Positions 20,992 to 23,186 of a DNA stretch of 39,575 nt are shown piece by piece; positions within the stretch are counted from its first letter, which is position 1; every line of letters begins with the position of its first letter. Made by a program: the position numbers and the translations under genes. This stretch comes from Pseudomonadota bacterium. Its GTDB lineage: Bacteria; Pseudomonadota; Gammaproteobacteria; Acidiferrobacterales; UBA6901. The notes beneath the pieces were generated by a model. It was not told the origin of the DNA, searched no databases, and worked only from the letters and a program-made list of their open reading frames with translations. The stretch covers positions 1-39,575 of the forward strand of contig JAKASJ010000027.1 of assembly GCA_021819085.1 (NCBI GenBank), given 5' to 3'.

Positions 20992-21816
20992 TTGAACTAC
21001 CGCCACAGTTACCACGCAGGCAACATTGCCGATGTATTCAAGCACTATGTTCTCACCCTGGTGTTGGAGGCACTACACCGCAAAGACACACCATTCTGCG
21101 TGATTGATAGCCACGCCGGTGCCGGACTCTACGAGCTCGGACGAAGCGGAGAATACGAGCAGGGAATAGGACAGCTGTGGCCGGAGCGCGGGGCCTGGAC
21201 AGCGCTGGCCGGCTACCTTGAAATCATCGCGCGGTTCAACCCTGGCGGCAGACTCAGGTTCTACCCGGGTTCACCGATGATCATACGTGAGTTCCTGAGG
21301 ACCGGAGACCGGGCAGCGCTGCTGGAGCTGCACCCGCAGGAGTATGCCTGCCTCAGGGAATCTATGCATGACGTCCGCGGCATCGGGGTGCATCACATCA
21401 ATGCCTGGAACGGGATCAGGGCGTTCGTCCCGCCGAAGGAAAATCGTGGATTGGTACTGATCGACCCGCCCTACGAACGGCCGGACGAATTTACGGCTGT
21501 TGCCGCCGCTCTGCGCCATGGCATGCGGCACTGGCGCAACGGCATGTATCTCGCATGGTATCCGATCAAGTCGCGCCGGCCGGTCGAGTCCTTCTACCGT
21601 GCAGTGGCTGCCATCAAGGCGCCGGCGCACGCGGTGGAGTTCATCACGTTACCGCTAGATGTGGAACGCCGCCTCAATGGCAGCGGACTGCTGGTCATCA
21701 ATCCGCCGTGGCGGCTCATGGAAACATTGCATGCCAGTCTGCCGCCGCTCGCCGAGCGTCTTGCCGGCATCGGTGGTTCGCCGCAGGTGCGGCTGGTCGA
21801 TCTGACGGCGAATTGA
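20992..21816 (+). CDS. rlmJ: 23S rRNA (adenine(2030)-N6)-methyltransferase RlmJ
   Basis: This enzyme methylates A2030 of 23S rRNA at N6 using SAM. The N-terminus NYRHSYHAGNIADVFKH is the RlmJ hallmark. The SAM-binding region CVIDSHAGAGLY (36-47) and the catalytic DPPYE (158-162) are present. At 274 aa the length is normal. The start codon is TTG 20992, chosen because homologues begin at this Tyr-Arg-His block and there is no ATG close by; the ribosome site is weak. It lies 75 bases after the MazG-like gene and may be co-transcribed with it. Confidence 0.95.
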   Translation: MNYRHSYHAGNIADVFKHYVLTLVLEALHRKDTPFCVIDSHAGAGLYELGRSGEYEQGIGQLWPERGAWTALAGYLEIIARFNPGGRLRFYPGSPMIIREFLRTGDRAALLELHPQEYACLRESMHDVRGIGVHHINAWNGIRAFVPPKENRGLVLIDPPYERPDEFTAVAAALRHGMRHWRNGMYLAWYPIKSRRPVESFYRAVAAIKAPAHAVEFITLPLDVERRLNGSGLLVINPPWRLMETLHASLPPLAERLAGIGGSPQVRLVDLTAN

Positions 21817-21860: not shown

Positions 21861-21874
21861 TTGATCCTGGTCAA
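21861..21874. promoter_or_regulatory. ANR/FNR-type box
   Basis: TTGAT-CCTG-GTCAA matches the FNR-family half-sites TTGAT-N4-(A/G)TCAA at every position, in the form preferred by ANR/DNR of pseudomonads. The centre is at about 21867.5. A class II arrangement (centre at -41.5) would put the start of transcription at about 21909 and the -10 at about 21896-21901, where TAAAGT is found. It lies 45 bases after rlmJ, and no protein gene starts downstream on the plus strand. Confidence 0.55.
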
Positions 21875-21907
21875 TGCCGTGGCGTCAGAAGGGTGTAAAG
21901 TGCCTAT

Positions 21908-22060
21908 CTCGTCAGCTGGCGAGATGGCCGGCAGATGCCTCCCACAGGGCAGGCTGGGGTGGATGCCACAGGCAACCCAAGCTCTGGGCTCGCAACAGAT
22001 CCCTACCCGGGATGTCAGGTAACGAGCTTCTAGTCCCGTGGATCTGCCGGCTCATCCTTT
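21908..22060 (+). ncRNA. Candidate oxygen-responsive structured RNA
   Basis: Downstream of the ANR/FNR-type box, a local hairpin (ATCTCG 21906-21911 with CGAGAT 21920-21925) is followed by a long-range stem. GCCGGCAGAT (21927-21936) is perfectly complementary to ATCTGCCGGC (22042-22051) and can be extended to about 14 bp with one bulge (GATG/CATC). CCAC/GTGG and GGG/CCC pairs continue it inward. The enclosed 105 bases contain further short hairpins, and CTTTTCC follows the right arm. The layout recalls oxygen-regulated RNAs such as FnrS or PhrS, but I see no sequence match to them. A 32-codon ORF (21924-22022) inside lacks a ribosome site. The right arm abuts the ykgJ stop, so a role as an mRNA 3' structure for ykgJ is possible instead. 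Confidence 0.4.
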
Positions 22061-22513
22061 TCCGCGCGTTGCCGGAGCTTTCACGGAAGGCGGCAGGGCG
22101 GTCGGGAGATTCAGGTTGCCCCTGATCGTGGTGAGTGCAATCACCGGTCCCTGACCGATCCCTTCGCAGCGTCGTGCCTCCGCTTTCCACGCGGCAGGTC
22201 GGAGAAGTTCCGGCCACCACGGATAGGTTTTGCACTGCAGCGGGCGTACCGGATACACCCGGCAACTGAGGTCGTCGAGGAGAAACGGACAGCGGCCATC
22301 GGCGCCAAGGCGAATTCCTTCGACCTTATCATTTACCGGCACGACGTAACGGCGCCGGAACCAGGGTCGCGAAAGACCCAGATAATCCCGTAACGCCTCC
22401 TGCTCCGCCCGTCCTATTTCGACGTAGTGATCGGCACCACCGATGCAGCAGGCGCCGCAGCCGGTGCACCGGAAACGCAAACCGGTCATCCCCTCCATCA
22501 GGCTCTTGGTCAT
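22052..22513 (-). CDS. YkgJ-family cysteine cluster protein
   Basis: This 153-residue protein has the YkgJ (zinc- or iron-chelating domain) pattern: FRCTGCGACC near the N-terminus (Cys16, 19, 22 and 23), then GRCPFLLDD, SCRVYPVRPLQCKTYPWWP and a final RRCEG. These Cys probably bind a metal or cluster. The function of the family is not established. The start is uncertain: ATG 22513 (MTKSLMEGM) has GGTACGGA directly before it, ATG 22498 is possible, and the frame is open to 22606 without support. It follows a conserved hypothetical gene on the same strand and converges with rlmJ. Confidence 0.85.
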   Translation of the reverse strand: MTKSLMEGMTGLRFRCTGCGACCIGGADHYVEIGRAEQEALRDYLGLSRPWFRRRYVVPVNDKVEGIRLGADGRCPFLLDDLSCRVYPVRPLQCKTYPWWPELLRPAAWKAEARRCEGIGQGPVIALTTIRGNLNLPTALPPSVKAPATRGKG

Positions 22514-22590
22514 TCCGTACCGCAATACCGTGCCAATTTCTGCAGTCGCACCGCTTGCTCCGGTCTGCCCAGTGCCGCAGCTTCTGTGAT

Positions 22591-23127
22591 CTACTTGATA
22601 CGCCACAGGGCAGCCAGTGGCGAAACCGGACCACTGTTTGCCGAAAGCGGAAGTTCAACGTGCCGGATGTGGTCAAGTGCTCCGGATACACGGTCGAATG
22701 CGCCGTACAGGTAGCGAAACAGCCTGATGCGCGCCGGATCCGATTCGAAGTAGGCGCTGTGCCAGAAGGCGCTGCGGCCTTGCTCCAGATAATATCCGAG
22801 CTGGCCACGCGCAGCCAGACGCTCACGGAACAGCCCGCTCATGAACAGCGAATATTCACCGATGTGGCGTACGATCAGTGCCTCGCGCGGCCGGTTTACG
22901 GGCGCATTGTCCCAGCCCTGCGTACGCCTCCATTCGGCGAGCATGCCGGCGATGCTGGTCACCGGTTCGCCGCTGTCGTTTCTGACGACATCAAGCATGC
23001 GCACGTGACTGAAGCGTGTCAGCACGTCGCTGACATAGTCCACGGCGGCCGGTTCGCCGACGCCATGGACCCCGAAACCGTGCTGAACGTGGCGATGGAA
23101 AAACTGGTAAAGTCCCGGGACTAACAT
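22591..23127 (-). CDS. Conserved hypothetical protein (178 aa)
   Basis: This soluble protein of 178 residues begins MLVPGLYQFFHRHVQ and has internal blocks RHIGEYSLFMSGLFRE and GQLGYYLEQGRSAFWHSA. I recognise these as features of an uncharacterised proteobacterial family whose members also begin with a YQFFH segment. No catalytic motif or membrane helix is visible. ATG 23127 has AGGGGG seven bases upstream. A strong promoter lies at 23187-23216, giving a leader of about 53 bases. It is followed by ykgJ on the same strand. Confidence 0.75.
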   Translation of the reverse strand: MLVPGLYQFFHRHVQHGFGVHGVGEPAAVDYVSDVLTRFSHVRMLDVVRNDSGEPVTSIAGMLAEWRRTQGWDNAPVNRPREALIVRHIGEYSLFMSGLFRERLAARGQLGYYLEQGRSAFWHSAYFESDPARIRLFRYLYGAFDRVSGALDHIRHVELPLSANSGPVSPLAALWRIK

Positions 23128-23186
23128 GCACAAACCCCCTGCCCATGAACGTGGACGCTGGCTGTCTGCGGTGACTCTTCAATGAA

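Follow-up and report, generated by a model that had tools for sequence, protein, structure and literature searches.

A candidate FNR/ANR-activated structured small RNA between rlmJ and ykgJ in one gammaproteobacterial family

The gap between rlmJ and a convergent ykgJ-like gene in the window (the whole stretch of DNA analysed, 39,575 nucleotides in length) very probably holds a member of a new family of FNR/ANR-class small RNAs. The reading that we favour, with a probability of roughly 0.78, is that of a stand-alone, non-coding, structured sRNA of ~150 nt, which is activated by FNR or ANR and acts in trans in the anaerobic response. Comparison among relatives supports the promoter layout, a covarying fold, a preference for the plus strand and a lack of coding behaviour; transcription, FNR as the activator and action in trans are what we infer. 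The original prediction, that the gap has the architecture of an oxygen-regulated sRNA of the FnrS or PhrS type, is supported, and very probably right, as regards FNR-type control, via the conservation of the box and of its spacing together with the covarying fold.

With respect to mechanism, we propose that an FNR/ANR-type activator would bind the box centred at -41.5 and would start transcription at ~21909 when oxygen runs out (or NO appears). The transcript would then form a hairpin at its 5' end and, after it, a long stem that encloses a three-way junction, and would end, as a stand-alone RNA, near the convergent ykgJ. The RNA would most likely be a post-transcriptional regulator acting in trans in the anaerobic response.

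Locus layout and promoter

The source genome is labelled G000; G001 to G004 belong to the same genus, G005 to a second genus and G006 to a third, all within one family. In the source contig the order is rlmJ, box, -10 hexamer, structured RNA and convergent ykgJ, with the following features:

20992..21816, plus strand: rlmJ (23S rRNA methyltransferase J), the upstream neighbour (PF04378, 224 bits)
21861..21874, plus strand: FNR/ANR-type box TTGATCCTGGTCAA; TTGAY-N4-RTCAA in 6/6 genomes
21896..21901, plus strand: -10-like hexamer TAAAGT, with a predicted +1 at ~21909; 21 nt after the box in 6/6 genomes, TAnnnT in 5/6
21908..21923, plus strand: 5' hairpin P1, starting at the predicted +1; folds in all six species, with 4 bp only and weak in G005
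21923..21936, plus strand: closing stem, 5' arm; covariation
21942..21950, plus strand: second stem, 5' arm; three two-sided pair changes within the genus
21951..21985, plus strand: hairpin A of the three-way junction; its GGA bulge does not vary in the genus but differs in G005
21986..22029, plus strand: hairpin B of the three-way junction; a U-A to C-G change in G001
22033..22041, plus strand: second stem, 3' arm, partner of 21942..21950
22042..22056, plus strand: closing stem, 3' arm, with a one-base bulge; covariation
22057..22061, plus strand: short, weak U-run after the closing stem; longer and U/A-rich in G005, no run in G001
22052..22606, minus strand: ykgJ-like gene (CxxCxxCC), convergent, with its stop codon inside the closing-stem 3' arm (PF03692, YkgJ-type, 42 bits)

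The Pfam assignments and the strands of the two flanking genes bear out the earlier statement that rlmJ and ykgJ converge around the box, and the rlmJ-box-RNA-ykgJ order is common to all five genus genomes examined and to G005, i.e. to six of the seven genomes of the family that were examined.

The exact pattern TTGAT-N4-GTCAA occurs once in the window, at the listed box (mean in shuffles 0.05), and tolerating one mismatch brings in no second site, although 1.47 sites would be expected. Across the whole genome there are 21 matches, versus four for a reversed control pattern, or one match per ~163 kb, such that the earlier estimate of one chance occurrence in several such windows was a fair one. 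The FNR consensus is TTGAT-N4-ATCAA; the description of the box as perfect thus holds for the loosened pattern TTGAT-N4-GTCAA, but with respect to the consensus itself there is one mismatch. All five genus members retain the GTCAA half. The box of G005 (TTGATCTGCATCAA) is a plain TTGAT-N4-ATCAA and is followed by the hexamer TAGAGT; the hexamer of G001, CGATGC, is a poor -10 element. The -10 hexamer TAAAGT was found where it had been predicted, and -41.5 spacing places the +1 at 21909, so that, as in FNR/ANR-activated sRNAs, an FNR-type box lies at about -41.5 relative to a start that is itself predicted.

Comparison of G000 with G005 reveals that 9/10 of the fixed box bases and 5/6 of the -10 bases are alike, as are 7/21 of the spacer bases and 1/4 of the central box bases. 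The distance of exactly 21 nt has been kept in all six genomes although the G005 spacer is near random, which argues that the promoter is under selection. The position of the box relative to the rlmJ stop codon ranges from 49 nt behind it to a 4-nt overlap; the box overlaps the stop codon in G005 (L103 1437-1450) and in G004 (the matching site in L004), whereas the remaining four genomes have it 18-49 nt past the stop. The distance from the predicted start to the closing stem, in contrast, is steady, staying between 14 and 17 nt in each of the six genomes, and on this basis we consider that the position of the box is tied to the RNA and not to rlmJ. Thus, the proposed check on conservation of the box upstream of the RNA gave a positive outcome, with the same spacing in 6/6 genomes, and box and RNA gene are conserved together in the manner of FNR/ANR-activated sRNAs. 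A simple scan for sigma-70 promoters, which demands a -35 hexamer as well, found none in G000 or G005; at a class II promoter, the activator site would stand in for the -35 element.

Fold, covariation and distribution among relatives

The RNA, at ~21908-22060, is predicted to form a 5' hairpin and then a long stem that closes a three-way junction. Both elements had been anticipated: the local hairpin corresponds to 21908-21923 and the long stem to the pairing of 21923-21936 with 22042-22056, the latter comprising 10 bp, a one-base bulge and 4 bp, with base 21923 shared with the local hairpin. The CTTTTCC following the long stem is likewise present. The proposal that the stem encloses about 105 bases is correct with regard to the stem but not with regard to an open loop, as the interior consists of a second stem and two hairpins in a three-way junction. 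The plus-strand minimum free energy has a z-score of -2.7, with none of 200 shuffles as stable, and G005 folded alone (z -3.1) gives the same overall plan, with a 5' hairpin, a long stem and a two-hairpin junction. Scans of both strands around the RNA in G000 and G005 revealed no canonical terminator, and the position of the RNA 3' end is uncertain as a consequence; in G005 the stem is followed by a U-rich stretch.

When the genus sequences alone are aligned with MAFFT, 97.9% of cells are paired, and two-sided changes affect 4/48 pairs, a count reached by one of 500 shuffles (mean 1.2), with slid versions giving 0 or 1. Inclusion of G005 raises the number of core pairs changing on both sides to 12/48 (shuffle mean 3.1, 0/500; slid versions at most 3) in the six-row alignment A6, which was fitted to the covariance model and hence leans towards structure. 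For the 5' hairpin, a comparison of the three species that have its 19-nt form shows two-sided changes in three of eight pairs, a count reached by 30/500 shuffles. The number of further pair types is not in excess over shuffles, either within the genus only or with G005. Covariation of the stem among relatives, which had been named as a check on the prediction, is thus found in all three counts, and we take the RNA to be under selection for structure. In the G005 row 35/46 aligned pairs are standard, and no more than 18 recur in the minimum-energy fold of the G005 sequence itself, such that the register of this row is uncertain. Core identities to the window are 97.8% (G003), 94.8% (G002), 88.1% (G004) and 87.2% (G001), and the respective rlmJ DNA identities are 94.6, 82.8, 76.6 and 74.3%; for G005 the core is 67.5% identical versus 65.7% for rlmJ DNA.

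A DNA search of 60 genomes, the source included, located the region in the four other genus genomes, G001 to G004, and gave two further matches, of 43 and 23 bases (E ~0.002), in other families of the order; neither of these two loci has an RNA-model match. With laxer filters, R1, the covariance model of the five genus core sequences, gave one full-length match among 13 other genomes of the order, in G005 (25.7 bits, E 0.07 for one genome, a marginal score by itself), which falls exactly between the rlmJ and ykgJ of that genome. With strict filters R1 matched 5/57 genomes of the order and missed G005, so that absence outside the family is weakly tested; it matched one of 369 sampled genomes of the class, its own, with nine candidates scored per genome. 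Model R2, on 40 genomes of the order, gave two partial matches (E 0.36 and 3.4), which span 41 and 73 bases, compared with 135 model positions, and are discounted. Over 86 loci with rlmJ relatives it recovered L008 and L009, which probably correspond to contigs of G003 and G002, respectively, and one 28-base chance match. G006 has no model match, and the 600 bases after its rlmJ contain neither a box nor a ykgJ-like frame. The RNA family has so far been found in one bacterial family.

None of the Rfam 15 families matches in the window at gathering score; a permissive search gave two chance-level matches there (E 9 and 9.5), and in three relatives there was none at E up to 5. With regard to a mobile-element origin, which we reject, no similar DNA was found in plasmid and phage collections, and there was no exact 20-mer match in viral contigs.

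Candidate regulators and alternative explanations

The source genome has nine matches to CRP/FNR-type helix-turn-helix domains, and three of these proteins were inspected. Two exceed the NCBIfam Fnr cut-off and carry a C-x2-C-x5-C motif together with a distal cysteine, presumably at the place expected for an FNR cluster ligand. The genome thus encodes two FNR proteins with four candidate iron-sulphur cluster cysteines, which would make them putative oxygen sensors. The third, L091, is FNR-like, lies below the Fnr cut-off and is without the N-terminal cysteine cluster.

The surroundings of all 20 other copies of the box were taken, and 12 proteins beside 10 of them were scanned; several other copies fall inside long frames. 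Four of the 12 have an evident anaerobic or NO link, i.e. NnrS, a hemerythrin-domain protein, a nickel-hydrogenase-like large subunit and HypA, and these neighbours fit an FNR or a Dnr regulon. A membrane pyrophosphatase, an efflux outer-membrane protein, a patatin-like protein, a B12-radical-SAM protein and a DUF302 protein are without an evident link, and three of the 12 scanned proteins gave no family match.

In L114 1500-3362 (G000:C3), one box lies at the start of the nnrS frame and a second 62 nt before the hemerythrin-domain frame, which suggests a small NO-response cluster. In L122 1284-1514 (G000:C41) a copy lies 216 nt before the nickel-hydrogenase-like gene, and in L123 1498-2222 (G000:C43) another lies 285 nt before hypA; hydrogen metabolism may be under FNR control. 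L134 (G000:C17:9000-20500) holds, within ~7 kb in total, a four-cysteine FNR gene, two tandem U32-family (UbiU/UbiV-like) genes and, ~2.3 kb beyond this pair and inside a long frame, a copy of the box; the first gene of the pair, in our own reading, directly follows a radical-SAM-like frame. This region is possibly an anaerobic ubiquinone cluster.

The fold of the single sequence leaves the strand unfixed, because the minus strand folds alike (z -2.9; 1/200 shuffles as stable) and its consensus energy, -65.6, is nearly equal to that of the plus strand, -66.3. The structure might accordingly belong to the minus strand, as the 3' UTR of the ykgJ mRNA. Against this very improbable assignment, the balance of G-U to A-C cells favours the plus strand (22 vs 6 over six rows and 19 vs 2 in the genus, with 3 vs 4 in G005), a count that leans that way as the structure was derived on that strand. 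Given that derivation and the near-equal energies, the stronger argument with regard to strand is that box and -10 hexamer stand in plus-strand spacing in 6/6 genomes. Nor is the stem merely the 3' end of ykgJ, as the original prediction had asked, since in G005 ykgJ stops 16 nt beyond it. A plus-strand transcript converging on ykgJ could instead control that gene in cis, by transcriptional interference or antisense pairing, and the location of the ykgJ stop codon within the 3' arm in 4/6 genomes and the lack of a clear terminator against read-through are consistent with this. However, the ykgJ frame extends 5 bases into the core in four genomes and does not reach it in G002 and G005, and a covarying three-way junction is unneeded for pure antisense pairing; we regard cis control as unlikely. 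There is no assignable gene just downstream on the strand of the RNA, ykgJ and the next conserved frame (22591-23133) being on the other strand, such that a leader function is improbable and action in trans the likeliest mode. The least credible of the alternatives is that the RNA is a small mRNA, or a dual-function RNA, for a 32-residue peptide encoded at 21935-22033. An open frame of identical length is present in 4/5 genus genomes, but changes are spread over the three codon positions (7, 6 and 9), 11/17 changed codons are non-synonymous (in three comparisons), G001 has lost the start, by a deletion, and also the stop, and G005 has no counterpart; the start codon, moreover, falls where the closing stem ends. 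We reject the peptide-coding reading, there being no codon periodicity, and the earlier statement that no protein gene starts there agrees with our observation that no frame behaves as coding.

A different question is which sensor drives the RNA. The same gene could be under the control of an NO-sensing relative of FNR, of the Dnr or NnrR type, and thus encode a nitrosative-stress or denitrification RNA; the GTCAA half kept across the genus, the same box pattern beside nnrS and the hemerythrin-domain gene, and the presence of L091 with its missing N-terminal cysteine cluster would all be in accord with such a role. We nonetheless regard NO control as rather improbable, given the plain TTGAT-N4-ATCAA box of G005, the box copies that also accompany the nickel-hydrogenase-like and hypA genes, and the two four-cysteine FNR proteins. 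As to how the proposed FNR/ANR-activated RNA would work, the positions that do not vary within the genus belong to its helices and to short, asymmetric internal loops, including the GGA bulge in hairpin A. Only two runs of at least four bases have a mean unpaired probability above 0.55, both of which vary, and no conserved open seed, as defined by these thresholds, was found in the RNA. Since conservation falls on these elements and not on open seeds, the RNA may act through its fold; that its three-way junction binds a protein or a small molecule, in trans, in place of pairing through an antisense seed, is a proposal we make tentatively. We lean only slightly towards pairing via an internal-loop region over protein or ligand binding.

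Relation to known oxygen-responsive RNAs

The 6S RNA is likewise long and extensively paired, and its size is similar to that of the RNA described here. The single match to 6S RNA (RF00013) in the source genome is on another contig (C73, 98 bits), and the present RNA differs further in that its fold is a three-way junction; its identification as 6S RNA is rejected. FnrS acts by Hfq-assisted pairing; Hfq is present in the source genome, in which ProQ was looked for and not found. FnrS thus pairs with mRNAs, whereas the RNA described here is almost fully folded. FnrS of E. coli is FNR-dependent and hypoxia-induced and regulates at least 32 mRNAs, PhrS of P. aeruginosa is an ANR-dependent sRNA that pairs with a target mRNA, and PaiI is NarL-dependent (PMC5703892). 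PhrS has the ANR-type control that we propose for the new RNA, and the latter is without a match to any Rfam family.

The nearest in kind in the literature consulted is SicX (PA1414) of P. aeruginosa. An Anr motif lies upstream of its gene, low oxygen induces it, and it occurs in this species only; by means of a seed it pairs with the ubiUVT 5' UTR so as to activate ubiUVT translation (PMC10247376). SicX and the RNA described here, compared by description only, share an Anr-type motif before the sRNA gene and a narrow phylogenetic range, but SicX has a seed, whereas no conserved open seed was found in the new RNA. The target of SicX is ubiUVT, and the source genome has two tandem U32-family (UbiU/UbiV-like) matches. 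Among the matches listed from the open-licence literature, none describes an sRNA between rlmJ and ykgJ.

The overall results add a well-supported candidate, the promoter and fold of which appear to be under selection, to the few FNR/ANR-driven sRNAs in the literature consulted, i.e. FnrS, PhrS and SicX. The two named records of the lineage are metagenome-assembled genomes, and the alignment of the six sequences can serve as the seed when covariance models are used to search more deeply. If the RNA acts through its fold, it would represent a different route by which the low-oxygen signal reaches the post-transcriptional level, and a new architectural class of FNR-regulon RNA.
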